DNA from: Terriglobia bacterium
GTDB lineage: Bacteria; Acidobacteriota; Terriglobia; JAIQFV01
Assembly: GCA_020072965.1 (NCBI GenBank)
Contig: JAIQFY010000012.1
Location: 1-64,000, forward strand
Length of the DNA: 64,000 nucleotides
Direction of reading: 5' to 3'
This document shows positions 1,286 to 26,678 of this stretch, one piece after another (position 1 is the first letter of the stretch; each line of letters opens with the position of its first letter). The translations under genes and the position numbers were made by a program. Under the pieces are notes generated by a model. It did not search any database. It was not told the DNA's origin and saw only the letters and a program-made list of their open reading frames with translations.

Positions 1286-3559
1286 ATGACCGTTAATTTG
1301 AACAAAATTTCACAAACACTTCGGGGCGCCCGGGACCGTGGCGAGCTCGCTCTCCTTGAAACCGAAGGCATGGCGGTGCTGGAAGCCATGGGCATTGCGG
1401 TCCCATTCCATCTATTTGTGAAAGACACCCTCGATGTGACGAAAGCCGATCTCTCCCTCTTTTCCGGAGACAAGATTGTTATCAAAGTGGTGTCTCCGCT
1501 TATCTTCCACAAAAGCGATGTAGGAGGAATAGCTGTCGTTCCCAATCAACTGGATGCCATTGTCCTCACGGTGGGATCGATGGAGAGGAAGTTCAGGGGG
1601 GAGGCGCTCGTGGGATTCACCCTGAACCAATATGTCCCCTACGACTCCTCCCTGGGTAACGAGCTCTTGTTGGGAGCTCGGTGGACGGACGATTATGGTC
1701 CTGTCGTCTCCTTCGGACCGGGCGGGATATACGCGGAATTTCTTGCAAGTCATTTCAAAACGGGAGCAGATGTCTCGATTCATTCGCCGGGGATAACGGG
1801 GCTGGATGGTCTTGCCCTGGTTCTACAGCAACCGGCTGTGACGCAATTGATCACTGGAGGTCTGAGGAACCAGCGGCCGCGTGTCAGCTTAGAGCAGCTT
1901 ACTGATGTGGTTCGAAAATTTGGCGAACTGTCGACGACCTTTATGCCCGAATTAATTTCCGAGTGTGAAATCAACCCTCTCGTCATCACACCCGGGGGCT
2001 TGACGGCACTGGATATCCTGATCAAGTTGGGGAGGGTTCCGAAACAGAAGGCGGTTGACCGTCCCATCCACAAAATCAAAAACCTGTTGCAGCCCCAATC
2101 CGCGGCGATCATTGGTGTTTCTGAGAGTCTCAACCCCGGCCATATCATCCTCAACAATCTGATTCGGGAAGGTTTTGCCAAAGAGCAAATTGCCGTAATC
2201 AAGCCCGGTGTTCAAACCATCGAAGGATGCCGGTGTTATCCAGACGTCGCCTCGATGTCTCATAACGTGGATGTGTTCATCGTGAGCGTCGATGCGTCGC
2301 GAGCGCCTGCGGTGATCACCGAGATCATCAAAGGAGAAAAGGCGGAAAGCATCATCCTGATTCCGGGCGGGCTGGAAGAAAAGCATGGAACCGAGGCGAT
2401 TGTTTCGTGCATGCATGAAGCCCTGAACGAAGCGCGGCGAAGTGAGTGGGGAGGACCGGTTATCAACGGGGGAAACTGCCTGGGCATTACCTCGCATCCG
2501 GGGCGTTACGACACGATGTTCATACCGGAATATAAGCTCCCCTTGCGGAAAGGAGCGATCTCACCCGTAGCGATCCTTTCGCAGAGCGGCGCTTTTGCAG
2601 TGGCCGAAGCCAGCAAGCTGATGGACATCAATCCCAAGTATTCCATCACGGTCGGCAATCAGATGGACTTGACGCTGGGCGATTACCTGACTTACCTCAA
2701 GGACGATACAGAAATTGAAATCTTTGCCGTTTATGTTGAAGGCTTTCGACCTTTGGACGGGTTACGGTTCCTCCAAGCCGCCGCGGAAATCACAGCGAGC
2801 GGAAGGACCATCATCTTCTATCGGGCAGGGCGAACCGCCGCGGGTGCGCATGCCGCGGCAAGCCATACGGCCTCCATCGCCGGAGACTATGCCGTCACAC
2901 GCCAGTTGGCGGAGTGCGCGGGGGTGGTTGTTGCCGAGACGATTGCAGACTTCGAGGACCTGACTCGGTTATTCACCTACTTTAGGCACAAGGAAGTGAA
3001 AGGATGGCGGCTGGGAGCCCTCTCTAATGCGGGATTCGAGTGTGTGGCGATAGCCGACAACTTGGGAAATTTCCGACTGGCCTCATTCGAGGCCGCCACA
3101 GGGGTCCGGCTCCAAAGGATATTCAAGGAGGCACGGATCGAGCAGGTGGTCGATCTTCACAATCCCATTGACCTGACTCCGATGACGGGAGACCTCGCTT
3201 ACGAGCAGGCCATCCGGGCCCTCATGGAGGATGTCCACGTAGACGCCGGGATTATTGGCTGTGTGCCTCTGACCTCGGCCCTCAACACCTTGCCATCGGC
3301 CCCCGGGCATCGCGACGATTTGCTTCGCGAGGATTCGATTGTCATGCGAATGGCCCGGCTCAATGAGGAGCTTTTCAAACCCTGGCTCGTAGTGATTGAC
3401 AGCGGCCCTCTCTACGATCCCATGGCACGGCTGCTGGAAGAACATGGGATTCCAACGTTTCGAACTGCCGACCGGGCGCTGGGCTTGTTTAACGTATTTT
3501 GCCGGGAAAGAATGAGGACCGCGACCAGGCTTCATGCGCCGGTCGCGCTGGTCCAATAG
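1286..3559 (+). CDS. ADP-forming acetate/acyl-CoA synthetase (fused alpha-beta)
   Basis: Predicted 757-residue acyl-CoA synthetase of the NDP-forming superfamily, converting acyl-CoA + ADP + Pi to acid + CoA + ATP or the reverse. The ATP-grasp (beta-type) part comes first (about residues 20-240), with the typical KVVSPLIFHKSDVGGI stretch. A CoA-binding Rossmann part follows (about 260-390, AAIIGVSES), then the succinyl-CoA-ligase-like part. The His of AASHTASIAG matches the phosphorylated histidine of the alpha subunit. The start was set at the ATG at 1286 because GGGAGG sits seven bases upstream; a TTG at 1214 would add 24 residues without a site. In many anaerobes and facultative organisms such enzymes give substrate-level ATP from acetate or branched acids; the substrate here cannot be told. 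Gene stands alone. Confidence 0.88.
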   Translation: MTVNLNKISQTLRGARDRGELALLETEGMAVLEAMGIAVPFHLFVKDTLDVTKADLSLFSGDKIVIKVVSPLIFHKSDVGGIAVVPNQLDAIVLTVGSMERKFRGEALVGFTLNQYVPYDSSLGNELLLGARWTDDYGPVVSFGPGGIYAEFLASHFKTGADVSIHSPGITGLDGLALVLQQPAVTQLITGGLRNQRPRVSLEQLTDVVRKFGELSTTFMPELISECEINPLVITPGGLTALDILIKLGRVPKQKAVDRPIHKIKNLLQPQSAAIIGVSESLNPGHIILNNLIREGFAKEQIAVIKPGVQTIEGCRCYPDVASMSHNVDVFIVSVDASRAPAVITEIIKGEKAESIILIPGGLEEKHGTEAIVSCMHEALNEARRSEWGGPVINGGNCLGITSHPGRYDTMFIPEYKLPLRKGAISPVAILSQSGAFAVAEASKLMDINPKYSITVGNQMDLTLGDYLTYLKDDTEIEIFAVYVEGFRPLDGLRFLQAAAEITASGRTIIFYRAGRTAAGAHAAASHTASIAGDYAVTRQLAECAGVVVAETIADFEDLTRLFTYFRHKEVKGWRLGALSNAGFECVAIADNLGNFRLASFEAATGVRLQRIFKEARIEQVVDLHNPIDLTPMTGDLAYEQAIRALMEDVHVDAGIIGCVPLTSALNTLPSAPGHRDDLLREDSIVMRMARLNEELFKPWLVVIDSGPLYDPMARLLEEHGIPTFRTADRALGLFNVFCRERMRTATRLHAPVALVQ

Positions 3560-3924
3560 CTCAATCCGTTTGCCCACATGCGTCGATTCATGGACTTTGA
3601 CCGCATGCGCTTCCAAGGATTCCGCGGGGTGAATATTGAAATTTGAGGTTTGAGAGCAACCCTTTGCGGTAGAATATGGGCCGCAAGCGTGAAGGTTGGT
3701 TTCCTCGATGCTTCAGGTTCCGCGGGGGAAGCTGCTAAGCACGCTCGGTAATGGGGAGGCGTTCCATCCCGGGGTAAATGTCCCCACGATTGTTCTGGCC
3801 CTCATACTGTTCCATGAGGAGTCGTTGACCCGATCTTTCCAACAAACCCGAAATACTTTTCCCATCGAAGGGGAGCCCCTCATGCGGGTTAATCATGGAG
3901 GCGCTCTATCAAGGAGGTTCGAGC
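3560..3924. other. Intergenic region upstream of the di-haem peroxidase
   Basis: No gene recognised. It should hold the peroxidase promoter. A possible -10 (TAGAAT near 3671) has no well-spaced -35, so no promoter is called. Confidence 0.3.
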
Positions 3925-5016
3925 ATGAAGAAAATCATCTTAATTGTGGTGGTTATTCTAATTTTCATTGCGTTCGCGGGCATATCAGGCAATAGTAGTG
4001 CGGGGCCGTTGCTCCTGGTCGCACAGCACAAATCCGCCAATTTTTCGAGCATCGAAATCAACCCCGAAGACCTGAAGCTGTTTCAACCCCTGCCTGAAGT
4101 GGCTGTCTCTGCGAAGAACCCTCTCAGCGAGGAGAAGATAACGCTGGGGCGAATGCTGTATTTTGACAAGCGTCTATCCCGGGGCAAGGATATCTCCTGC
4201 AACGACTGTCACCAACTGGATCAGTATGGAGTGGATAACGAGCCGCGTTCGAAGGGATTCAAAGGACAGTTAGGAGGCCGCAATTCCCCGACCGTGTACA
4301 ATGCCGCGGCGCACGTCGCCCAATTCTGGGATGGGCGCGCGCCTGACGTGGAGGAGCAAGCCAAAGGGCCGGTGTTGAATCCTGTGGAAATGGCGATGTC
4401 CGATGACAAGGCGGTTGTGGCGGTTTTCAAATCTATTCCGGGGTATGTGGCCGCCTTCAAGAAAGCCTTTCCGGAAGACAAGGATCCTGTGACGTATGAC
4501 AACATGGGAAAGGCCATCGGCGCCTTTGAACGGAAGCTGATGACCTCTTCCCGTTGGGACGATTTCCTCATGGGGGACAAGGGTGCCCTGACCAATTTGG
4601 AAAAGATCGGTTTCAACAAGTTCATCGAATCCGGTTGCCAGAAGTGCCACTCGGGTTCTCTCGTAGGCGCGGGCATTTATGCCAAGCTGGGCTCTGTGAA
4701 GGAGTGGCCCGACAAATCCGATCCGGGACGCTATCAGGTGACCCGGAACAACTCGGATAAAATGCGGTTTAAAGTGCCCTCGCTGCGCAATGTCGAGAAG
4801 ACCCGCCCTTACTATCACGATGGCTCCGTCGCGACCCTGGACAAAGCGGTCAGCCTGATGGCGGAGTTTCAGTTGGGCAAATCACTGAGCAATGATGATG
4901 TCAGGTTCATCAGCGCCTGGCTCAAAACGCTGACCGGGAGAATTCCAGTCGATTACGTGAAACCTCCCGAGTTGCCGCCGGACGAAACCCGGAGTTCTCC
5001 CTCAGGGGCCAATTGA
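3925..5016 (+). CDS. Di-haem cytochrome c peroxidase (CcpA/MauG family)
   Basis: Predicted 363-residue exported di-haem protein. An N-terminal hydrophobic segment after MKK (about residues 4-20) serves as signal peptide or anchor. Two c-type haem sites are visible: CNDCH at about 92-96 and CQKCH at about 238-242, the spacing of bacterial cytochrome c peroxidases. The family reduces periplasmic hydrogen peroxide with electrons from cytochrome c or a cupredoxin; MauG-like relatives instead oxidise protein residues. The context does not discriminate, but no mau genes are nearby, so peroxidase is the simpler reading. Start chosen at ATG 3925, with AAGGAGG at 3911-3917 upstream; the frame also opens ten residues earlier without a site. 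A terminator follows at 5043. Confidence 0.9.
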   Translation: MKKIILIVVVILIFIAFAGISGNSSAGPLLLVAQHKSANFSSIEINPEDLKLFQPLPEVAVSAKNPLSEEKITLGRMLYFDKRLSRGKDISCNDCHQLDQYGVDNEPRSKGFKGQLGGRNSPTVYNAAAHVAQFWDGRAPDVEEQAKGPVLNPVEMAMSDDKAVVAVFKSIPGYVAAFKKAFPEDKDPVTYDNMGKAIGAFERKLMTSSRWDDFLMGDKGALTNLEKIGFNKFIESGCQKCHSGSLVGAGIYAKLGSVKEWPDKSDPGRYQVTRNNSDKMRFKVPSLRNVEKTRPYYHDGSVATLDKAVSLMAEFQLGKSLSNDDVRFISAWLKTLTGRIPVDYVKPPELPPDETRSSPSGAN

Positions 5017-5042
5017 TCCCGGGTTCATGAGGTGCATAGCAC

Positions 5043-5077
5043 AAAATCCGCTCCGGTCCAGGGGCGGATTTTTGTTT
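5043..5077 (+). terminator. Intrinsic terminator after the di-haem peroxidase
   Basis: A 9-bp perfect stem (5043-5051 with 5064-5072) with a 12-nt loop; the distal arm ends in TTTT and runs into TGTTT. It isolates the peroxidase from the methyl-transfer genes downstream. Confidence 0.75.
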
Positions 5078-5152
5078 AGACTCGCTAGCGTGGGTTGAAA
5101 TCGATGGACCGTGATCCGGGGACCCCTTGAGTCCTTTAAGGAGCGCGCTCAA

Positions 5153-5800
5153 ATGCAGCTTGAAGAAATATCCAGGAGTCTGGTTCGCGGCGACCCGGGC
5201 GCGGTAGAGAAGTTGACCCGGCAGGCTCTGGACGAAGGATTTCCGCCCCGGGTCATCCTGGAAGAAGGTCTGATTGCCGGGATGAGTGTTGTCGGGATGA
5301 AGTTCAGGAACAATGAAATGTATTTTCCCGAAGTCCTCGTCTCAGCCCGCGCCATGAAAGCCGGAATGGCACCTTTGGAGCCCATTCTCAAAGCATGTGG
5401 AATTGAACCCATGGGAAGGTGTGTTTTGGGAACGGTGAAAGGAGACATCCACGACATTGGCAAGAACCTGGTGGGCATCATGTTCAAAGGGACCGGGTTT
5501 GAAGTCATCGACCTCGGGGTGAATGTTACGCTTGACAAGTTCATTGCGGCGATACGCACACATCGACCGGACATCCTGGGGATGTCCGCGCTGTTGACCA
5601 CCACGATGGTCCAAATGAAGGTCAACATGGAAGGCTTTCGTTCAGCTGGCCTTCTGGACGGTATGAAGGTCATGGTGGGAGGCGCCCCGGTTACCCTGAA
5701 ATTTGCGGAGGAGATTGGGGCTCATGCCTATGGGAAAGATGCGGCCGAGGCGGCCGGGAAGGCTGCCGAGCTGATGAAAGATTTGAAGACTGCCTTCTAG
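5153..5800 (+). CDS. Methyltransferase corrinoid-binding protein (MtbC/MtaC-like)
   Basis: Predicted 215-residue cytosolic corrinoid protein. The N-terminal helical cap (about residues 1-85) is followed by a B12-binding Rossmann domain with the base-off signature DIHDIG (Asp98, His100, Gly103); the His is the lower axial cobalt ligand. Further conserved pieces are GMSALLTTTM and VMVGGAPV. Such proteins shuttle a methyl group between a substrate-specific methyltransferase and an acceptor methyltransferase; the same fold forms the B12 module of MetH. The start was placed at ATG 5153, with AGGAG about ten bases upstream, rather than at GTG 5111. The next two genes encode a UroD-type and a homocysteine methyltransferase on the same strand, which suggests one pathway. 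The methyl donor is unknown: no MtaB/MttB/MtvB-type enzyme is in the window. Confidence 0.9.
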   Translation: MQLEEISRSLVRGDPGAVEKLTRQALDEGFPPRVILEEGLIAGMSVVGMKFRNNEMYFPEVLVSARAMKAGMAPLEPILKACGIEPMGRCVLGTVKGDIHDIGKNLVGIMFKGTGFEVIDLGVNVTLDKFIAAIRTHRPDILGMSALLTTTMVQMKVNMEGFRSAGLLDGMKVMVGGAPVTLKFAEEIGAHAYGKDAAEAAGKAAELMKDLKTAF

Positions 5801-5883
5801 GAATGTGACGCCGGGTATGTCGGAGGGGAGCGCTGCAACAGGCCTTCGGACCGCGGCTCTCATCTGCACGCAGGAGAACAGAC

Positions 5884-7062
5884 TTGAACAGCAAGGAGCG
5901 AGTGGCAGCAGCGATGCGTCATGAATTGCCGGACCGGGTTCCGGTGATGTGCCAGCTGGCATTGGGCCACTATTTCCTCAACTGTGGTCTCCCGGAAATT
6001 GAGATCTGGCATTCCACTGAGGCATTCGGGGAAGCGTTGATCACCTTGCAGCGGCGGTATCATTTCGACGGTATCCTGGTCAATCTGCCCGGGCGCGACC
6101 CCCAATGGAGCTCTTACATTCGCCATGTGGAAGAGTGCAACGGGGAAAAGAAAATTCACTGGACCAACGGCTGGACCACGGTGTGCCCCCGCGACGACAA
6201 CCCCCATGTTTATCGCGAAGATGGGACCCGGTACTCCGCCCCGTTTGAGTCGATCGAACCTGAGAAACTCTTCTACATCGAACCGCACGCGATGAACGGA
6301 ATCGCCTATCCCGCCTATTGGGGATTTCCGGATGAACCCGCCCGGGAGGAGGATTTATTTCCACCCTGGCAGTTTGACACGATCGAATACATTCTGCAGC
6401 GTACGGGGGAAGACGTTTCGATCCATAGCGAAGTGTTTTCCCCGTTCACGCAGTTCCTGGAATTATTGGATTACACCCGCGGCCTGATGGCTCTCCTGGA
6501 TGATCCGGGCAAGGTCAAGGCTTGCCTTGAAGCGCTCACTCGGGGCACTATCGCGCTGGGCCGCGGACAAGCCGCAAGGGGGGTGGATGCTGTCTTGATA
6601 TCGTCCGCTTTTGCAGGCGCTGGCTTCATCTCCCCCGATCATTACCGCGAATTTGTTCTGCCCTATGAAAAGAAGGTGATTGAGGGAATTCGTTCAGAGA
6701 TCGACGTACCGGTCTACACCCACATCTGTGGACAAATTGGGGATCGACTGGAACTCATCCAGGCGACCGGCACCCTGGGCATCGACACGCTGGATCCACC
6801 CCCGCTGGGCAATGTCGAGTTGGCGGACGCGAAGGAGCGGATCGGCAGACAACTCTTTATCAAGGGGAATTTAGATCCGGTCAACGTGATGCTGAATGGC
6901 ACACCTCAAGAAGTCTTGGAGGAGGCGAAACGCTGCCTCGAGGTGGCAGCACCGGGGGGTGGTTATATTCTGAGTTCGGCGTGCTCCATCGCCCCGCATT
7001 CTCCGCCGGGCAATGTCCTGAAACTGCATGAAGCCGTGAAGCAGTTCGGAACGTACGATTGA
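5884..7062 (+). CDS. Uroporphyrinogen-decarboxylase-fold methyltransferase (MtaA/MtbA-like)
   Basis: A 392-residue TIM-barrel protein of the UroD superfamily, more like corrinoid:thiol methyltransferases than haem-pathway HemE. A zinc site of the MtaA/MtbA kind is visible: His280 and Cys282 in YTHICGQIGD, and Cys367 in SSACSIAPHSPP. True HemE lacks this His-x-Cys...Cys set. The protein would move methyl groups between the corrinoid protein encoded 83 bases upstream and a thiol or other acceptor. The start is TTG 5884, supported by AGGAG at 5872-5876; no ATG precedes the conserved NSKERV start of the family. Substrate cannot be deduced; some members act as methyl-donor-specific demethylases. 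Family confidence is high, direction of transfer unknown. Confidence 0.88.
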   Translation: MNSKERVAAAMRHELPDRVPVMCQLALGHYFLNCGLPEIEIWHSTEAFGEALITLQRRYHFDGILVNLPGRDPQWSSYIRHVEECNGEKKIHWTNGWTTVCPRDDNPHVYREDGTRYSAPFESIEPEKLFYIEPHAMNGIAYPAYWGFPDEPAREEDLFPPWQFDTIEYILQRTGEDVSIHSEVFSPFTQFLELLDYTRGLMALLDDPGKVKACLEALTRGTIALGRGQAARGVDAVLISSAFAGAGFISPDHYREFVLPYEKKVIEGIRSEIDVPVYTHICGQIGDRLELIQATGTLGIDTLDPPPLGNVELADAKERIGRQLFIKGNLDPVNVMLNGTPQEVLEEAKRCLEVAAPGGGYILSSACSIAPHSPPGNVLKLHEAVKQFGTYD

Positions 7063-8542: not shown

Positions 8543-10327
8543 TTATTTCACCCTGAGCTTCTCCCGCAGCCAGTCGTTCAACACCTTCAGAACATCGTCG
8601 CCGATCGATGAGGTGGCGAGAGAAGTATACTCGTTAAATGACCCGGTTTTTGCGGGGAGGAACAAGTGATTGAGGCTCGGAAAGACGTGAACCGAGACAC
8701 TCTTGTTGCCTGCTTCGAGTGCCGCTTTTTCCAGGGCCGCGGCCTGATCGGCAGTGACCTGCCGGTCGAGGGCGCCCTGTAAAATCAAAACCGGCTGGCG
8801 CACTTTGCGGATTGTCGGCAAGGGATCATAAGTGAGGAAATTCTTGTACCAGGCATTCTTGACCGTGTCCGGTAGTTTCGAAACATCGCCGCCTTCGGCG
8901 ATCGTCCGGAGCATTGCTTGTTGCTCTGCCAGTCGCCTGGCCTTTTCCTCCTTGGTGAGGGTTGGGTCGCGATCCAGCAGGTCTGCGGATTGATCGATGA
9001 TAACCGCATCCCCGCGTTTGGCCGTGCCGGCCATGAGGACAATCGCCGCCAGGGCGGGATCGCTCGATGCCACGAGCGGTGCGATGATGCCCCCCTCACT
9101 GTGGCCCACGAGCGCGATTCGATTCGGATCAATGTCAGGACGGCTGCGGAGATAAACAACCTGGGACCGTGTGTCATCCGCGAAATCAAAGGTCGTCACA
9201 TTCCGAAGTGTCTCATGCCCAGAAGATTTCCCAATACCCCGGTCGTCCACACGCAGTACCGCGATTCCCTGGCTGGCCAGGGACTCGGCGATTTGCCGGA
9301 AGGGACGATACTTTTCGAGCCCCGGAATCGGAATGGGCTCGTCCCGTGTCTGCTGGCCCGAACCGGTGATGGTAATGACGGCAGGGAAGGGCGCCTTGCC
9401 CTTTTTGGGCAATAGAAGTGTTCCGGCAAGGGTGACGTCCTTCGACTTCACCATTACTTCTTCCGCCGTAAAAGCGGCGTCGGGCGAAGCGGAATAATCG
9501 GGCTCAACGGCCTTAGCTGCGGCGGCCATGGCGGTTCGCAGCGGGTCGACAAAGCCCAGGTACTCTTCGCGAACCGCCACAAAGTTCTGCATCGGGACAG
9601 ACATCACCGCGACCCTTCCTTTGGAATCGGTCCATAAGAGCGTGCTGATCACGCCGAACTGGAGATTGTACCGGTCAAAAGATTCCGGCTTTGCCTGGGC
9701 CATAATCCCCGTCGCCTGGACCTCATCACGGGCCAGCCGCTCCATCCTCATCTTCATGCTCGGAAAGACCGGAATCTCTTGAGGTCCCCCCTGGCGAGTG
9801 TCATAGCGTGCCGCGAGGAACGTGAGTAAATAAAGAATGTTCGGCGCGACGAACGAGGATCCCGGCGTGTAAGGCACTTCACGTTGGGAGCCGCTGAATG
9901 AGGCTTTGGCTGTCCCGTCTTTCAGAATAAGGACCTGATCGGTGGGATTACCGGCCATTGTTCCTTTTGCGGTGAATTTCGAAGGAATCGCCGATTTGTC
10001 CAGCTCCAGCGTCGATTCGAGATCAACGGTGGCGCCAGGCACCCTCAGATCCGTGTGTCCGCTGACGGAAAAACCCCCCTCCGGAGGACAGGTAACTTCG
10101 AACGATTCGCGCCCTACGGGTTGCCCGTTCATGGTGAAGAGATAAACCCCTTTGCCACACAGGGCAGAGGAGAGCAGCGGTGGGGCCGGTGGAAGCGCGG
10201 AGATTTCAGGTTTGGCCAACGTTTCTTTCTGAGAGGAAAGCTTGCTGGGGGCGGGTGTTTGTTGTGAAAAGATTATTTCGGGAATGAACAGGAGGATGAC
10301 GAGAAAACTGGAGATCCTTGATTTCAT
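8543..10327 (-). CDS. Secreted alpha/beta hydrolase (dienelactone hydrolase/S9-like)
   Basis: Predicted 594-residue exported hydrolase. The first ~22 residues form a signal peptide. Residues ~50-290 match no family I recognise and may be a beta-rich substrate or scaffold domain. The C-terminal ~300 residues are an alpha/beta hydrolase with nucleophile Ser410 in GHSEGG, a likely acid Asp521 in LQGALDRQV and His554 in SLNHLFLP. Bacterial proteins of this architecture are annotated as S9-family peptidases or esterases; the substrate is unknown. The start at 10327 was chosen because GAGGAG lies about five bases upstream; another ATG nine codons earlier lacks a site. It is transcribed divergently from the cupin gene. 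Confidence 0.85.
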   Translation of the reverse strand: MKSRISSFLVILLFIPEIIFSQQTPAPSKLSSQKETLAKPEISALPPAPPLLSSALCGKGVYLFTMNGQPVGRESFEVTCPPEGGFSVSGHTDLRVPGATVDLESTLELDKSAIPSKFTAKGTMAGNPTDQVLILKDGTAKASFSGSQREVPYTPGSSFVAPNILYLLTFLAARYDTRQGGPQEIPVFPSMKMRMERLARDEVQATGIMAQAKPESFDRYNLQFGVISTLLWTDSKGRVAVMSVPMQNFVAVREEYLGFVDPLRTAMAAAAKAVEPDYSASPDAAFTAEEVMVKSKDVTLAGTLLLPKKGKAPFPAVITITGSGQQTRDEPIPIPGLEKYRPFRQIAESLASQGIAVLRVDDRGIGKSSGHETLRNVTTFDFADDTRSQVVYLRSRPDIDPNRIALVGHSEGGIIAPLVASSDPALAAIVLMAGTAKRGDAVIIDQSADLLDRDPTLTKEEKARRLAEQQAMLRTIAEGGDVSKLPDTVKNAWYKNFLTYDPLPTIRKVRQPVLILQGALDRQVTADQAAALEKAALEAGNKSVSVHVFPSLNHLFLPAKTGSFNEYTSLATSSIGDDVLKVLNDWLREKLRVK

Positions 10328-19250: not shown

Positions 19251-20603
19251 TCAGTCAATGGGGGACGGGAAGTCTTTGAGTTTCTCCCGGAGAGTTTTAC
19301 GATCGATTCCGAGGATTACGGCGGCGCGGGTTTTGTTGCCTCCGACGCTTTCCAGCACATTGTGAATATACTCCGTCTCGACCTCGGCCAGGGTTCGATC
19401 CAGCCCGCTGCCTCGCAGTGCCGAGAACCGCATGAGTGAGGGCAGATCGGGCACCTCGATCAATTCGCCTTCGGTCATCACCACGAGTCGCTGGACCACA
19501 TTCTCCAGTTCGCGCACGTTCCCCGGCCAGTGGTAGTTGCGGAGCACCTCCAGGGCATTTTCAGAAAAATGGGGTACGGGTTTGCCGAGCTCCTTTGCAA
19601 ATTTTGCCGTGAAATGGTTGGTCAGAAGGAGAATGTCGTCCCCGCGCTCGCGCAAGGGGGGAATATCAATGGAAATAATATTGAGTCGAAAATACAAATC
19701 CTGCCGAAAGGCCTCTTTCTTCACCAGGGCCTGCAGATCCTTATTGGTCGCCGCGAGAATTCTGACATCCACTTTTCGAGTTCGGCTCGAACCCACCATG
19801 CAGACTTCTTTGTCCTGGAGGACTCGCAGCAGTTTCACCTGCATGCCCAGGCTGGTTTCGCTGACCTCGTCGAGAAAGATCGTGCCTCCGTCGGCGGTCT
19901 GAAAAAAGCCGGCACGGGTCTCGGTGGCGCCAGTGAAGGCCCCTTTGAGATGACCGAAGAGCTCGCTTTCGAGCAGTTCTTCCGGAATCCCGCCGCAGTT
20001 GACCGGGACGAATGAGGCCGACGCGCGCGGACTGTTATAGTGAATGGCGCGCGCAACGAGTTCCTTACCTGAACCGCTTTCCCCGGTAATCAGCACGGTG
20101 GCCAGCGTAGTGGTTGCCTTGCTGATGGCGACCGAGACTTTCTTCATGGCTTCGGACTCGCCGATCATCCCGAGCTGTGTTGGCAGAGGAGGGGGAAGCT
20201 GATCGGATCCCGACCTCCGCATGTGCAGCTTATCGAGGGCCCGGGAGACGGCGGAAAACAGCTCGTCGTCAGTAAAGGGTTTGACCAGATAGTCTTCGGC
20301 CCCTGACCGGACCGCTTCGACCGCCCCTCCGATCGAGGGATATCCGGTGATCATCATGACTTCGGTGTCTTTGAAGTTCTCCCGCACGTGCCGGATCAAA
20401 TCCAGGCCGCTGATCTTAGGCATTTTGAGGTCGGTGATGACCAGGTCAACGGCAGTGGCATCCAGAATGTGAATTGCCTCCGTCACTCCGGGAGCGGTGA
20501 AAACCCGATATCCCTTGGAGGCGAGGTTTCGCTGGAGAACCTCCAGGGTTTCCGGCGCATCATCGACCACCAGAATCTGTTCCTTATCACTCGAAGATGC
20601 CAT
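19251..20603 (-). CDS. NtrC-family sigma-54-dependent response regulator
   Basis: Predicted 450-residue regulator: receiver domain (about 8-120, phospho-acceptor Asp58 in TDLKMP), AAA+ domain (about 140-370, Walker A GESGSGKE and the sigma-54-contact loop GAFTGA), and a Fis-type helix-turn-helix at the C-terminus (GGNKTRAAVILGIDRKTLRE). It should activate -24/-12 promoters when phosphorylated by the kinase encoded upstream, whose 3' end it overlaps by 17 bases. Start at 20603 (MASSSDKEQILVV) fits the receiver fold; an upstream extension is non-homologous. The target is unknown; the redox operon lies immediately downstream in the same direction. Confidence 0.93.
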   Translation of the reverse strand: MASSSDKEQILVVDDAPETLEVLQRNLASKGYRVFTAPGVTEAIHILDATAVDLVITDLKMPKISGLDLIRHVRENFKDTEVMMITGYPSIGGAVEAVRSGAEDYLVKPFTDDELFSAVSRALDKLHMRRSGSDQLPPPLPTQLGMIGESEAMKKVSVAISKATTTLATVLITGESGSGKELVARAIHYNSPRASASFVPVNCGGIPEELLESELFGHLKGAFTGATETRAGFFQTADGGTIFLDEVSETSLGMQVKLLRVLQDKEVCMVGSSRTRKVDVRILAATNKDLQALVKKEAFRQDLYFRLNIISIDIPPLRERGDDILLLTNHFTAKFAKELGKPVPHFSENALEVLRNYHWPGNVRELENVVQRLVVMTEGELIEVPDLPSLMRFSALRGSGLDRTLAEVETEYIHNVLESVGGNKTRAAVILGIDRKTLREKLKDFPSPID

Positions 20604-22419
20604 TGTACTCAACCCCTTTTTCGTGCAACCCAAAGGAGACCGGCAGGAGAATCTCAAACCGCGAGCCGTGACCCACTTCGCTTTCCACCTTGATCGACCC
20701 GCCATGAGCGGTCACAATCCCATGCACCACCGGCAAGCCCAGGCCGGTCCCTTCCCCGATTTCCTTGGTGGTGAAGAAGGGAATGAAAATCTGTTGCAGG
20801 ACTTCCTTGCTCATTCCCGTTCCGGTGTCTTCCACGATGAGAGAGACGTGGCTGTTCGAGGCCATCGTCTTGATGGTCAGCCGGCCGCCCTCCGGCATGG
20901 CTTGCAGCGCATTGACCACCAGATTGACCAGCACTTGGTGGAGTTGAGAGGGATCGGCGGTCACCTTGGGTAGATCGGGATGCAGATCACGCACGAGCTC
21001 GATCCCCGCTTTGATGCATCGAGCCTCAAGAAAGTAGAGGCCATCTTCAACCATCTGATTCAAGTCGACTTTGTCGGTCCGGGGAGGCAGCTGCCGTGAA
21101 AACAGCATGAGTTTCCTGACCACCTCGCGGGCGTGGAGCGTTGCTGCGACGATTTTTTCAAGATCCTGACCCGTCTGCGGAGGCAACTCCGCAGATTTTA
21201 TGGCCAGTTGGGCAAATCCCAGAATACTGCCAAGGGGTTCATTCAACTCGTGGGCAACCCCCGCAGACAGCTGGCCGATCGTGGCCAACCGGTCGGCATG
21301 ACGGAGCTGTTCCTGCAGCTTGATTTTTTCCTCGTCCGCGCGGAGACGCTCGATGAGAAGAACCACCTCCTTGGCCACGGTGTCGATCAAGCTTCGCTCT
21401 TCCTCGAGGAAAGGCCCTTCGTCGATTTCCGGCCTCTGTTCCGAGTAGGTCACCTCGACAATCCCCCGAGGGTTTCCGTTGGCGATAATCTCAGCCTTCT
21501 GCTGATGACATCCTTCCTGGAAACTGATTGAAGCGTAGGTCCGGCCATCGAGAATGATCCGGGCCGAGGCAATCTCCGGATACAACCAGGCGGGAGGAAG
21601 CAGGGCCACAATGCCATAAAGGACATCCTCCTGAGAAACCCCCTGACGCCCCACCCACTGAGAAATGCCGTACAGGCACGTCAACTCTTTAACTCGTTCC
21701 CGAAGTTTCACCTGAGTGATCCGGTGGACGAGCGCGACTCCCAATATTTGCGCGATCCCTTCGTATAGCTCGACTTGATCTCTTGAGAAGAAGTTCGGAC
21801 GAGCGCTTTTCATCTCGATCAAACCGATCTTCTTTTGATCATCCATGATTGGAATCATGGTCAGGGATCGAAGACCTCCCGGGGCGGGCGAGAGCCGCCG
21901 CGAGATCTCCTTCTGTGCCGGCGAGCGATCCTTTGAGAGGTTTTGCACATCGCCAGTCCAGAGGCTTCCCTTTTCTGTGAGGGCCGGAAGGACGGATGGA
22001 CGGCCACGCCCCATGAGCGCCGAGCGCCACGCCTTCAGCGGGGGATCCTGTTTGCGGTCACCGTCCCGGAGGTTTCCGATCACCTGCCGGTCCGGAATAA
22101 CTTCGTATTGAAACGGGGGCTTGCGACGTCGTTGCAATTCAGTTCGGTAGCAATTGTCGTGCTCTTCCAGTTGAATCGCGACAGAGTCACACTTGGAAGA
22201 AGTCAATAGGATCCCTGAGACCTCCCGCAGAAAATCGATTCGCAGGAGACCGCGTGTTGCCAGCTGAAGAATTCGACTCGACATGTCCCGGAAATCGTGG
22301 ATACGATGGGGGACAGGAGCCTGTGAGTGTGTTTGTCGTGATTTGATGTTTCCTGGCGGCATTGCAGTCGGTGGGAGAAGGCCTTCCCCTCGGTTCGCAT
22401 ACTTGTTGACGGCGACCAT
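20587..22419 (-). CDS. GAF-domain sensor histidine kinase
   Basis: A 610-residue kinase without membrane segments, so probably a cytosolic sensor. Two GAF-like regions (about 50-230 and 245-360) precede a HisKA domain with phospho-acceptor His390 in SAGVAHELNEPLGS and a HATPase domain (N box LVNLVVNALQAMPEGG, G boxes EDTGTGM and GEGTGLGLPVVHG). It pairs with the NtrC-type regulator by direct overlap. GAF domains bind small ligands, haem or Fe-S cofactors; the signal cannot be read from sequence. The start at 22419 is the most upstream ATG and the first ~45 residues are not conserved, so the true start could be internal. Confidence 0.9.
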   Translation of the reverse strand: MVAVNKYANRGEGLLPPTAMPPGNIKSRQTHSQAPVPHRIHDFRDMSSRILQLATRGLLRIDFLREVSGILLTSSKCDSVAIQLEEHDNCYRTELQRRRKPPFQYEVIPDRQVIGNLRDGDRKQDPPLKAWRSALMGRGRPSVLPALTEKGSLWTGDVQNLSKDRSPAQKEISRRLSPAPGGLRSLTMIPIMDDQKKIGLIEMKSARPNFFSRDQVELYEGIAQILGVALVHRITQVKLRERVKELTCLYGISQWVGRQGVSQEDVLYGIVALLPPAWLYPEIASARIILDGRTYASISFQEGCHQQKAEIIANGNPRGIVEVTYSEQRPEIDEGPFLEEERSLIDTVAKEVVLLIERLRADEEKIKLQEQLRHADRLATIGQLSAGVAHELNEPLGSILGFAQLAIKSAELPPQTGQDLEKIVAATLHAREVVRKLMLFSRQLPPRTDKVDLNQMVEDGLYFLEARCIKAGIELVRDLHPDLPKVTADPSQLHQVLVNLVVNALQAMPEGGRLTIKTMASNSHVSLIVEDTGTGMSKEVLQQIFIPFFTTKEIGEGTGLGLPVVHGIVTAHGGSIKVESEVGHGSRFEILLPVSFGLHEKGVEYNGIFE

Positions 22420-22537
22420 CGTCTCCGTGGATCACCAGTGTATCACGGTTGGGGAAGTGACGGATATGGTGTGTCGCCCTTCCTGACCCGTTGGCCGGTC
22501 GGACGGCGACCTCGCGCTGGATCTGCCAGCCATCGAA

Positions 22538-22939
22538 TCACGCCATGATTTTCCGGATCCCGTCTCGCAGCAGGGGCACATTGAAATTGATCAGGAAACC
22601 CTGCCTTTTTCTGCTCAGTCTGAGGGTGGTGAGGAGTTGGGCTTCATGGAGTGGGGTGATTGCTTCCGCCGCTTTGATTTTAACTACCAGTTGATCATCC
22701 ACAAGCATATCGAGCCTCAAGCCTCCCTCCAGCCGAATTCCATCATAGACAATCGGAATGACAACTTGATTCTGTACGTTGGCTCCGCGTCTTTTCAGCT
22801 CGTATGAGAGGCAAACCTCATAGACTGATTTGACCAAGCCGGGCCCAAGAATTCTGTGAACGTTGAATGCGGCATCAAGCGTGAGGGTCGCGGCACATTC
22901 GGTTTCGAGCGACAGGGATTCGAACCTAGACATGGGCAT
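22538..22939 (-). CDS. GxxExxY-type protein
   Basis: A 133-residue protein of the GxxExxY family, common in environmental bacteria and of unknown function, with a fold related to PD-(D/E)XK nucleases. The name motif appears as GPGLVKSVYEVCLSYEL, with Lys where Glu is usual. The IKAAEAITPLHEAQLLTTLRL segment is a clear family match, although the usual E-x-K of the core reads VVKIKA here. The substitutions could mean loss of nuclease-like activity. It lies upstream of the kinase gene on the same strand but 118 bases away, and may be independent. Confidence 0.8.
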   Translation of the reverse strand: MPMSRFESLSLETECAATLTLDAAFNVHRILGPGLVKSVYEVCLSYELKRRGANVQNQVVIPIVYDGIRLEGGLRLDMLVDDQLVVKIKAAEAITPLHEAQLLTTLRLSRKRQGFLINFNVPLLRDGIRKIMA

Positions 22940-23216: not shown

Positions 23217-24266
23217 TTAGTTCATGCCGAGCCGCAACCGGGCGATCTCTTTCCGAATGGCCAGCAGGGTCGTTCCGCTTTGACTCAAGGCGACGAATCC
23301 AAGGATCCAGAGCGGAAAGGTCAACAGGACAAATACAACGACGGAGAAACCGGTGGCAAGCGTCTTGTCCACGCCAAACAAAGTCAAACCCACCACCGTG
23401 AAGAACTGGTAGGTGCCCACGTTGGCGGGGGCATTGGGCAAGGCCGTCCCCAGATGCACAATCAAAAAGACGGCGGCGCCCACCCACAACGAGAGCGGCA
23501 ATCCGTACGCCCACATGACCAACCAGAATGACATCGCCTGAATCCCCAGCATGAACAGGGAAACCATCGCGGCCAGGTAAAACGGGCGCGACAGGCCGAT
23601 CGCCTTCAAGCCGCGGGCAAGGCCGGTCACCACCGAGCCCGCTCGACGCCACAATCCCGGGCCCTCCGACTTTTCATCGCGCGGTTTGAGGTCGGCCCTT
23701 TGGCTGCGCAGGACGATTAACACGAACAAAACGGTCGCTATTAAAACGATGACGCCCAAGGCATCGCCGGCCTCAAGGAGATTCCTTGGCAAGGGAATGA
23801 GGATGGCAGTGAGCCCGATGGCCAGAGCCATCCAGACACCGTCCAGCCAGCGCTCCACCATCATGGAAGGAACAACCGCCGTCAGCGGGACACGAATCCA
23901 GCGGGATACCAGGTAGGCGCGAACTAACTCGCCAAAACGCATCGGCAGTACTTCATTGGTAAAGAGTCCCACATAGATTGCCTGTGTCGAGCGAAGGACG
24001 GATGGGCGCCCCACCGGGACGAGTAATAGGGTCCACCGCCAACCTTGAGCGACATAGTTCAGAACATCAAGGAGGATGGCTAAGGCGACAAACCCCCAGC
24101 GGATGGTCTTTATGTTCTGGAAGAGGCCTTCTACGCGAATATCATGAAAGACCCAGACCAGGCAGGCCAGGGCGATGGCGTATCCAGCCGTCGGCTGAAT
24201 CCACCGCCGGACCCCTCCCGGCCGATGGAGAGATGCATCCTTCACTGCGTCGCTGACAGGATCCAT
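23217..24266 (-). CDS. MprF flippase-like integral membrane protein (LPG synthase TM family)
   Basis: A 349-residue polytopic protein of the UPF0104/LPG-synthase transmembrane family, matching the N-terminal flippase half of MprF. About eight hydrophobic segments are visible, with the conserved pieces GLFTNEVLPMRFGELVRAYL and LPNAPANVGTYQ. In MprF this half moves lysyl-phosphatidylglycerol to the outer leaflet. Its start overlaps the preceding hydrolase gene by 25 bases, which is itself coupled to the synthase gene, so the three form one operon. Stand-alone members also occur with glycolipid genes, but context favours aminoacyl-lipid translocation. Inner membrane. Confidence 0.85.
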   Translation of the reverse strand: MDPVSDAVKDASLHRPGGVRRWIQPTAGYAIALACLVWVFHDIRVEGLFQNIKTIRWGFVALAILLDVLNYVAQGWRWTLLLVPVGRPSVLRSTQAIYVGLFTNEVLPMRFGELVRAYLVSRWIRVPLTAVVPSMMVERWLDGVWMALAIGLTAILIPLPRNLLEAGDALGVIVLIATVLFVLIVLRSQRADLKPRDEKSEGPGLWRRAGSVVTGLARGLKAIGLSRPFYLAAMVSLFMLGIQAMSFWLVMWAYGLPLSLWVGAAVFLIVHLGTALPNAPANVGTYQFFTVVGLTLFGVDKTLATGFSVVVFVLLTFPLWILGFVALSQSGTTLLAIRKEIARLRLGMN

Positions 24267-25030
24267 TCAATGCCTCTTCGAAGAGCGCCAAGGAACGCCG
24301 TTGTGTTTCCATCAAAGCGGTGATCGTTGGCTTCAATCAGTTCAAACCGCTTGGGCTCCTTTGCGGCTGAAAACAGGTCCCGGGCCGTTGACACAGGCAC
24401 GTATTCATCGTGGCTCGATTGGATCATCCATAAAGGGAGGGGAGTCACCTGCGGGAGATATTCGGCGCTTCGAAACCGGGGTTCCTGGGGGATTTCTTTG
24501 GTCACATAAGTCAGGTAATCCGCTAACCGCCATCCCAGAATATTGACAGGGCCCAGGCCGATGGTGACCAGCCCATCAAAGGTCTTCCTGTTCTCTGGAC
24601 CGGCCGCTCCAAGCAGGCATAATCCTGCCCCTTCCGACCACCCCACCAGGGTCAAACGATCTTTCTTGTCCTTCACAATCAGTTCTGCAATCAACCTGAA
24701 ATCACTCATTACGTCCGTTACTGTCAGGCCGGTCTTCCCGCTGAAGCCTTCGAGATACCGTTTTGTATCGAGCGCATAGACATCATATCCCCAGGAGGCC
24801 ATCGTCTCCGCGATCGTGATGGCGAAGCCTCGCCAACCTCCATCTCCTGGAACAAATAGAATCTTTAGGTGAGGAGTAGTTGTGGAAGGGCTCCCAGCAA
24901 TAATGTAGACGTCTTGTTTTTGACCACGAATGATCCATGTGTGTTGGACTGGCTTTGGTTTCCCCGCAAAACAAGTTGCCTCCGCCGCAAGGAGAAAGAG
25001 AAAAGTGGAGGCGATGAATCGTCTAGCCAT
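24242..25030 (-). CDS. VirJ/AcvB-family exported serine hydrolase (likely aminoacyl-PG hydrolase)
   Basis: Predicted 262-residue exported protein with a signal peptide (about residues 1-22). It matches the VirJ/AcvB alpha/beta hydrolase domain: VPGDGGWRG near 60, nucleophile Ser132 in GWSEGAG, Asp208 in SSHDEYVP and His237 in NDHRFDGN form a full triad. Agrobacterium AcvB hydrolyses lysyl-phosphatidylglycerol in the periplasm and is encoded beside lpiA (mprF); the same arrangement is seen here between synthase and flippase genes, which supports that function. The start at 25030 overlaps the synthase stop by eight bases and has AGGAG upstream. The protein has one domain, unlike the longer AcvB. 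Confidence 0.85.
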   Translation of the reverse strand: MARRFIASTFLFLLAAEATCFAGKPKPVQHTWIIRGQKQDVYIIAGSPSTTTPHLKILFVPGDGGWRGFAITIAETMASWGYDVYALDTKRYLEGFSGKTGLTVTDVMSDFRLIAELIVKDKKDRLTLVGWSEGAGLCLLGAAGPENRKTFDGLVTIGLGPVNILGWRLADYLTYVTKEIPQEPRFRSAEYLPQVTPLPLWMIQSSHDEYVPVSTARDLFSAAKEPKRFELIEANDHRFDGNTTAFLGALRRGIEWILSATQ

Positions 25031-26678
25031 ACAGGATCTCCTCTTCCTCAAAGGCACTGACCTTGCTTAAGGCGATGGCCAGGCGAGGCAGGTCAAGCGG
25101 GTTTCGATAGATGGAATACCGGGGCTCCCAGGAAGTAGCAAATTTGGCCTTGTACTGGCGCAGGCCGCGGTAGCTGAAGAGAAAGTTCAAATATTGGAAG
25201 AAGAAATGGACGGCTCTTTCTTCCGGCGAAGCCGCCTCCTTTTCCGCGAAACCCGACATCGGAGCCATGCCCATATCAAATTGCTCAAACCCCCGGGCCC
25301 GTTCCTGGGCAAACAAGCTCAAAAAGAGATAGTCCATGATTCCGTTGGGAGCGTCGGTCCGGTACCGCATGAGATCGGTGGTGGATTCTCCTTTGCGGAA
25401 AGAAGGGATGATGTTCACAAAGGCCAGAACCTGTTCATCTTTTCCGGCAGCGACAAACAAAGGGGTCCTACGGATGTAATCGGGGTCAAACCGGCCCAGC
25501 GTAAACCCGCGCTCTCGACGGCCGGGGATCTGCAACCATTGATCGGAGACTTTCCTGGCTTGAGCGAGTACCTCATCGGGAAGGGGAGCGTTGTACAAAC
25601 GGGTGTGGATTCCGGCTTTCTCCAGGCGGTTGATGCTATGTCGGAATTTCTTCATGGACTTCCCTTCCAGGCTGAATTGCTTCAGATCCACAATGGCGTC
25701 ATCTCCAATCTTGAGCTTCTTGAATCCAAAGTGTTGATAGACGGACAAAAAATCGGGCAGGGTTTGATGAAATCCAATCCCCCAATCGTTTTCCCTGCAC
25801 ATCTCGGCAAACTCGTGGATGGCTGGTCCAATTTCTTCATCCGGGCCCACCGGGTCCCCCAGCACAATGGCGAAATTCCCTGCGACGCGGTAAGCCAGGA
25901 AACAGTTCTGCGACGGGGTGAGAAAAATCGATTTATCGGGCCAGACCTTGAAATAGTCCAGGGACGAGCGGCCATGCTTTTCGAGCAGATGAACTGCGTG
26001 GGAATGCTCGTGAGGAATCATTGCGTATTGATAGATTACGGGTCGAAACAGGGAAAAGCCTGCATAGCTGAAGGCGGTGATGCTCATGAGGTAGAGCGAG
26101 TCCACAAACCAGTGTGCATACCTCGTGTGGGGGGTGATGGCCGGATCACCGGCCAATGAAAAGAACAACAGGGTTCGATGGATGGATTCCCAGAAGTTGA
26201 AATTAATACCGAAATGTCTTGGATCGAGGGCCCAGAATCCGGCCACGCCATACGCCAAGGCCACCAGGGCCGCGATCCCGAACCGAAGAAACCCCGAGCG
26301 GAAATCGGGGATACTGCTCTTGACGGTGAAGCTCTTGCGGTTCAAAAGCAGCACGATCACGAGAACCAGTGAAAGAAGGGCATGCTCGTAGTCGCGTCCT
26401 TTCAGAAGGTGGACAATAACCGAAAGGCAGCCCAGAGCCAGCACCCCTTGAAAAGCCCGCTTCTTCCGCTTGTAAATGTTGAGGGAGGAGACGACTAGTG
26501 CAAATCCGATGAACAAAGCCAAAAATCGGCGAAGGCGGAGGAATTCCAATGGAACGACGAGTCCCCAAAGCTCGCGGTGATGTGGCAAAGCGGGATCCAT
26601 CACCGAGAGAATGTTAAACAGCCCGCTCCCTAACGTCACCAGGACAACGATCCAAATCCACGGAGTTCGCTTCTTCAT
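25023..26678 (-). CDS. Phosphatidylglycerol lysyl/alanyl-transferase (MprF synthase part)
   Basis: A 551-residue membrane protein. The N-terminal ~210 residues hold about six hydrophobic segments; the C-terminal ~330 residues are the DUF2156/MprF catalytic domain with tandem GNAT folds (GDPVGPDEEIGPAIHEF, FKKLKIGDDAIVDL, DLMRYRTDAPNGIMDYL). The enzyme transfers an amino acid from tRNA to phosphatidylglycerol on the inner leaflet, lowering surface negative charge and raising resistance to cationic peptides and acid. Full MprF has a further eight-helix flippase half; here that half appears as a separate gene (23217-24266). First gene of a coupled three-gene operon. Confidence 0.88.
   Translation of the reverse strand: MKKRTPWIWIVVLVTLGSGLFNILSVMDPALPHHRELWGLVVPLEFLRLRRFLALFIGFALVVSSLNIYKRKKRAFQGVLALGCLSVIVHLLKGRDYEHALLSLVLVIVLLLNRKSFTVKSSIPDFRSGFLRFGIAALVALAYGVAGFWALDPRHFGINFNFWESIHRTLLFFSLAGDPAITPHTRYAHWFVDSLYLMSITAFSYAGFSLFRPVIYQYAMIPHEHSHAVHLLEKHGRSSLDYFKVWPDKSIFLTPSQNCFLAYRVAGNFAIVLGDPVGPDEEIGPAIHEFAEMCRENDWGIGFHQTLPDFLSVYQHFGFKKLKIGDDAIVDLKQFSLEGKSMKKFRHSINRLEKAGIHTRLYNAPLPDEVLAQARKVSDQWLQIPGRRERGFTLGRFDPDYIRRTPLFVAAGKDEQVLAFVNIIPSFRKGESTTDLMRYRTDAPNGIMDYLFLSLFAQERARGFEQFDMGMAPMSGFAEKEAASPEERAVHFFFQYLNFLFSYRGLRQYKAKFATSWEPRYSIYRNPLDLPRLAIALSKVSAFEEEEILYG

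Follow-up and report, generated by a model that had tools for sequence, protein, structure and literature searches.

In Pseudomonas aeruginosa, PA0920 and PA0919 constitute an alanyl-phosphatidylglycerol (Ala-PG) synthase and a single-domain periplasmic hydrolase. In Agrobacterium, AcvB is encoded together with the synthase LpiA, binds LpiA and lowers the level of lysyl-phosphatidylglycerol (Lys-PG), giving a physical make-and-remove module (PMC13197417), and VirJ performs the same chemistry as AcvB (PMC13135905). The parts of MprF are functional when expressed as two proteins, and Lys-PG is still produced by Staphylococcus aureus MprF from which the first eight helices have been removed (PMC2774229). 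In the gpgSDF and hexSDF systems, two enzyme genes are followed by the gene of a separate COG0392 flippase (PMC12713373; PMC10128005), and fusions of DedA to a synthase are described in the part of PMC11980842 that cites Roney and Rudner 2023. Here we describe a locus in a 64,000-nucleotide stretch of a Terriglobia bacterium (assembly GCA_020072965.1, contig JAIQFY010000012.1, positions 1 to 64,000; this whole stretch is called the window), where three overlapping genes encode an aminoacyl-phosphatidylglycerol (aminoacyl-PG) synthase, a secreted hydrolase and a flippase-like protein. We think that this operon, which is conserved in soil Acidobacteriota, is probably a translationally coupled make-move-remove module for aminoacyl-PG turnover, with all three activities predicted.

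On the minus strand the gene order is synthase, hydrolase, flippase, and both junctions overlap; the place and overlap of the three genes given in the initial annotation were borne out. The features are as follows.

25023..26678, minus strand: putative aminoacyl-PG synthase, 551 aa, with membrane helices equivalent to MprF transmembrane helices (TM) 9-14 and a cytoplasmic double-GNAT domain
24242..25030, minus strand: AcvB/VirJ-like alpha/beta hydrolase, predicted to be secreted, 262 aa counted from ATG 25030
23217..24266, minus strand: stand-alone PF03706 (PplT/YbhN-type) phospholipid flippase-like protein, 349 aa
25023..25030, minus strand: ATGGCTAG overlap, with the synthase stop inside the hydrolase start; spacing is -3 or near zero in most relatives
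24242..24266, minus strand: 25-base overlap between the hydrolase end and the flippase start; spacing is -24 or -3 in nearly all relatives
24635..24637, minus strand: codon of the predicted nucleophile Ser132 (GWSEG), equivalent to AcvB S336 by residue comparison
24407..24409, minus strand: codon of the predicted catalytic Asp208, from the alignment of 23 rows
24320..24322, minus strand: codon of the predicted catalytic His237, equivalent to AcvB H433 by residue comparison
24842..24844, minus strand: codon of Asp63 in GDGGW, equivalent to AcvB D271 by residue comparison

The hydrolase frame opens at GTG 25057, and we prefer ATG 25030 as its likely start because this fits both translational coupling and the N-terminal signal-like segment; in most relatives, too, the hydrolase start overlaps or adjoins the synthase stop. 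Because the genes overlap, a single transcript may be expected for all three. The genome (~5.9 Mb, estimated 100% complete) contains one PF09924 match and one PF06057 match, both in the operon, and three PF03706 proteins.

The closest known arrangements are shared only in part. Like the window, the LpiA-AcvB / AtvA loci of Agrobacterium and Rhizobium pair the gene of an MprF-type synthase with a neighbouring gene for a periplasmic aminoacyl-PG hydrolase, and they follow the same proposed make-and-remove logic; the statement of the initial annotation that AcvB is encoded beside lpiA and hydrolyses aminoacyl-PG in Agrobacterium agrees with PMC13197417. However, LpiA has its own flippase, and in AcvB there are an additional N-terminal domain and the acidic residues D340 and D370, all of which are absent from the window counterparts. 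The PA0920-PA0919 pair resembles the window in combining a synthase with a single-domain hydrolase, whereas PA0920 is a full-length fused MprF and the window synthase is without a flippase half. Bifunctional MprF of S. aureus and Rhizobium tropici shares with the window the synthase half, its adjacent membrane helices and the flippase fold, but is one protein where the window has two, with the flippase drawn from another PF03706 subfamily that lacks D234, E280 and R304. In overall layout the operon matches gpgSDF (P. aeruginosa) and hexSDF (Clostridioides difficile), in each of which a headgroup modifier is followed by a second modifying enzyme and a separate COG0392/PF03706 flippase; there, however, the headgroups are sugar-based and the middle gene encodes a deacetylase that aids lipid synthesis, in contrast to the headgroup-removing hydrolase proposed for the window. 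The DedA-synthase fusions likewise pair an MprF-type synthase with a different lipid transporter, which indicates that transporters are exchangeable, although the DedA transporter is fused and that of the window is a separate PF03706 protein. No published report of the three-gene order was found in the literature searched, most subscription papers lying outside that search, and a search without subscription papers and preprints returned no relevant literature on aminoacyl-PG in Acidobacteria. The operon appears to recombine known enzyme types, its flippase belonging to a different subfamily from that found fused in classical MprF.

The full synthase-hydrolase-flippase order is present in 19 acidobacterial genomes (the window, genomes found in earlier searches, and G339), with identities down to ~35-50% and the same overlaps. 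The initial annotation had proposed to look for this gene order in other phyla; a one-genome-per-species scan recovered the full order in Acidobacteria and pieces of it elsewhere. Our surveys are samples, the class survey comprising 250 genomes, in which synthases matching with E below 1e-70 were counted as strong. There were 14 such genes in 13 genomes, and every one of the 14 adjoined a window-type hydrolase: ten loci had a flippase next to the hydrolase (which in the G097 locus is a remnant) and four had the hydrolase followed by the synthase. None of these 14 synthases has the length of a flippase-fused MprF. Among the weaker PF09924 proteins of one family in the same survey, no window-type hydrolase was seen, and the one that was checked is a DedA fusion. 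Both the retention of the order in 19 genomes and the adjacency of the hydrolase to all 14 strong synthases support a functional link between the three genes. In other acidobacterial lineages, window-type hydrolases also lie beside fused MprF (L085, L087, L088, L089, L092 and L093) and beside DedA-fused synthases (L084, and L086 in divergent orientation), which suggests that hydrolase and synthase form a stable pair while the transporter varies. In L090 and L091 a window-type hydrolase was found with no synthase within the 9 kb examined.

Several variant loci were noted. The synthases L084:4641-6845, L086:4652-6910 and L099:1941-4058 carry an N-terminal DedA (VTT) domain that replaces the MprF flippase. 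L029 has tandem synthase genes (2291-4147 and 4151-5908) preceding the hydrolase and flippase, and L041, L043, L080 and L081 have a second window-type hydrolase directly after the flippase, giving the order synthase-hydrolase-flippase-hydrolase. The synthase and flippase of L045, a contig titled Bordetella parapertussis, coincide in trees with those of the acidobacterial genome G006; the title suggests a metagenome bin with a wrong label.

The synthase matches PF09924 with 272.9 bits (E 3.8e-81), and it aligns with positions 324-838 of the 841 in the NF033480 MprF profile, scoring 449 bits (cut-off 600). Since this match covers only positions 324-838, the protein corresponds to the C-terminal part of MprF, which bears out its designation as the synthase half. 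Searches with phmmer gave 4v36 (E 4e-59) and 6lvf (E 3e-55), the alignments running from residue 18 of the protein and residue 355 of MprF; from this it follows that the helices adjacent to the catalytic domain are present and that the first flippase subdomain is missing. A simple hydrophobicity scan showed five strong hydrophobic segments. Set against the curated definition of bifunctional MprF, the synthase domain is there and the two functions are not joined in one polypeptide. The protein is a family member with a complete domain, and as judged from its sequence it would synthesize aminoacyl-PG. In the synthase tree, the enzymes of window-type operons form one clade (Shimodaira-Hasegawa-like approximate likelihood ratio test, SH-aLRT, 98), as do those of the hydrolase-synthase type and those of the fused type.

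The flippase matches PF03706 over positions 3-302 of 302 (132.6 bits, cut-off 33.4, E 2.7e-38) and TIGR00374 with 77 bits, while the NF033480 MprF model gave no match and a profile search against PDB sequences gave none either. Its structure model has a predicted local distance difference test score (pLDDT) of 81, and a fold search with this model returned six MprF entries (Z 17.7-19.3, root-mean-square deviation 3.9-4.3, ~300 residues), the next row being at Z 5.6. With its modelled MprF fold and its conserved operon position, the protein presumably has aminoacyl-PG as substrate.

The hydrolase scores 32.1 bits with PF06057 (cut-off 22), over 75 positions only, and 34.7 bits with Hydrolase_4; among solved structures in the PDB, the best match of its profile is AcvB (9xhm, E 5e-12, ~49 bits). 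Near its N terminus, residues 5-16 form a hydrophobic segment. For the residue comparison with AcvB (PMC13197417) we used a hydrolase alignment of 23 rows, 19 of the synthase-hydrolase-flippase type and four from loci without flippase. Ser132, Asp208 and His237 are invariant in this alignment, Ser132 and His237 corresponding to AcvB Ser336 and His433 in all 23 rows. A periplasmic hydrolase with a complete Ser-Asp-His triad, as initially annotated, is therefore what these data indicate. AcvB D271, which lies at the alpha-amino group, corresponds to Asp63 in the window hydrolase and is Asp in 22 of the 23 rows; the window-type hydrolase of L029 carries Asn at this position. L029 also encodes a separate two-domain AcvB-like protein (8793-10184; PF06057, 220 bits). 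The window hydrolase has an AcvB-like active site, and hydrolysis of aminoacyl-PG is its predicted activity.

In the mechanism that we propose, the synthase would move an amino acid from aminoacyl-tRNA onto phosphatidylglycerol in the inner leaflet. The PplT/PF03706 protein would replace the missing N-terminal subdomain of MprF and carry the lipid to the outer leaflet, where the secreted hydrolase would cut the aminoacyl ester at the periplasmic face and regenerate phosphatidylglycerol. Outer-leaflet charge would then depend on how synthesis, translocation and hydrolysis balance one another. The flippase would probably gain access to the lipid through proximity to the synthase and not through headgroup recognition. 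It may even bind the membrane part of the synthase and rebuild an MprF-like whole, which is conceivable because that membrane part corresponds to the second subdomain of MprF. This make-move-remove reading agrees with published work, since AcvB is encoded with and binds LpiA, and since MprF works as two proteins. We infer which amino acid is attached, in which direction the lipid is transported, and any feedback; a self-limiting circuit, as envisaged in the initial annotation, might conceivably result.

A number of observations on the flippase and on the hydrolase weigh against such a module. In MprF, D234, E280 and R304 (YRxxY) line the cavity and gate (PMC8131360). The split flippases lack D234, have an invariant Gln in place of E280, and Ser or Ala in place of R304, whereas the fused acidobacterial MprFs retain R304 and carry D or E at positions 234 and 280, as far as the remote alignment to the split group can be read. 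Members of the flippase subfamily are also present in genomes that have no synthase at all. In addition, there are hydrolase-synthase loci with no flippase close by, and the related genomes G027, G085 and G105 have a hydrolase and synthase with no match to the window-type flippase, so that this flippase is not strictly required. On all three counts the flippase could instead move bulk phospholipid, as suggested for YbhN, leaving an aminoacyl-PG unit of synthase and hydrolase only, whose product would reach the outer leaflet otherwise. We consider this explanation unlikely, given that both the position of the flippase behind the hydrolase and the overlap between them are kept in 19 genomes. Moreover, P. 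aeruginosa MprF is a promiscuous scramblase whose selectivity has been proposed to arise from proximity to the synthase, and a Glu-to-Gln change at its gate did not stimulate transport and was tolerated (PMC11980842). Because this enzyme moves many lipids and tolerates the change of its gate Glu, loss of the cavity and gate residues is compatible with a flippase role in the proposed module.

As to the hydrolase, its relationship to AcvB is distant (~49 bits by profile), and of the three acidic residues with which AcvB handles Lys-PG, two are missing from it. At the position of D340, a residue kept in the AcvB homologues compared (PMC13197417), every one of the 23 rows has Gly, Asn or Ala. The position of D370 is Ile164 in the window and I, V, L or F in all 19 operon-type rows, which belong to one clade and are remotely aligned in this region, and hence count as one evolutionary contrast and not as 19. 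Furthermore, in L103 the synthase and flippase are intact and the hydrolase (5628-5952) has decayed, without the catalytic Ser and His; this genome also carries an intact hydrolase-synthase locus. The initial designation as AcvB/VirJ-type holds as an AcvB/VirJ-like identity, with AcvB 9xhm as the best profile match, but the kinship is weaker than had been claimed and two acidic residues are absent. The structure model (pLDDT 88) has an ordinary alpha/beta-hydrolase fold, and the matches listed by the fold search were general alpha/beta hydrolases and esterases only; AcvB was not among them, the library extending to April 2026, and the search is neutral on kinship with AcvB. Together with the distant similarity and the lost D340 and D370, the general esterases among the solved-structure matches would suit a hydrolase that acts on another substrate, for instance a different periplasmic aminoacyl or acyl ester, and that is linked to the synthase by shared stress regulation. 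That seems to us quite improbable in view of the near-perfect linkage of hydrolase and synthase over several genome architectures and the retention of the AcvB D271, Ser and His equivalents.

The same residues bear on the lipid that the make-move-remove module would handle. AcvB D370 contacts Lys and has been linked to Lys-PG, and Ala-PG producers have Thr or Ser there (PMC13197417). In the hydrolases the position is Glu in all four rows from loci without flippase; of the six hydrolases encoded next to fused MprF or DedA-fused synthases, five have Glu as well and one has Ala. The position is non-acidic both in the PA0920-PA0919 system (Thr or Ser; PMC13197417) and in the window, where it is hydrophobic, whereas D340 is kept in PA0919 (PMC13197417) and lost in the window hydrolase. 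The hydrophobic residue at position 370 leads us to predict a neutral aminoacyl-PG: the sequences hint that Ala-PG or a different neutral aminoacyl-PG is at least as likely as Lys-PG, and in the mechanism above the lipid would more likely be of this kind, such as Ala-PG, than Lys-PG. The comparison across the Acidobacteriota also singles out position 370 as a candidate determinant of Lys versus Ala selectivity.

A true fission in which an ancestral MprF gene received a hydrolase gene between its two halves is very improbable, since, despite a synthase that starts at an MprF domain boundary, a flippase with the MprF fold and two complementary products, the split-flippase profile matched none of eight acidobacterial fused MprFs, the cavity residues differ, and the tree unites split and stand-alone flippases against fused halves (SH-aLRT 100, with long branches involved). 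Most stand-alone PF03706 members share the Gln and Ser-or-Ala pattern of the split flippases at the Glu and Arg positions, and the simplest reading is that the flippase was recruited from this stand-alone subfamily and not cut off MprF. The initial term split MprF is thus apt for the synthase, which is the C-terminal half, and for the fold of the flippase, but that the flippase is the missing half of MprF is not supported, given the absent NF033480 match, the cavity residues and the tree. In synthase-less genomes the neighbours of stand-alone flippases are mixed (e.g. lipid A acyltransferase and CDP-alcohol phosphatidyltransferase), and these contexts pointed to no clear common substrate. Among the close flippase relatives, L075 and L082 lie in such genomes, beside unrelated genes, and L076 is a second flippase copy outside the synthase operon of an operon-bearing genome, again with unrelated neighbours.

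Downstream of the operon, on the same strand, positions 19251-22939 of the window encode a histidine kinase, a sigma-54 (NtrC-type) response regulator and a PDDEXK_3 protein. The two-component neighbours were considered as part of the module and rejected: they are closely conserved in a same-genus genome only, two of three other relatives having none and the third weak generic matches. A search for sigma-54 sites in the window gave 20 matches, none useful, where 27.6 were expected, and one sigma-70 site was found against 2.0 expected, so no promoter could be named.

MprF joins synthesis and translocation in a single protein, apart from the hydrolase, so that the functions are hard to vary singly. 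The window operon separates all three, so that each can be removed alone, and this makes headgroup- versus proximity-based selectivity of translocation directly testable. Tentatively, turnover across the Acidobacteriota may have hydrolase and synthase as its fixed core, with an exchangeable transporter (a fused MprF half, a separate PplT, a fused DedA or none), and the operon type may have exchanged Lys-PG for a neutral aminoacyl-PG on taking its new flippase; we hold this broader scheme to be possible, though somewhat doubtful. Across the Acidobacteriota the hydrolase remains paired with the synthase whichever transporter is present, an indication that removing the lipid is as basic there as making it.

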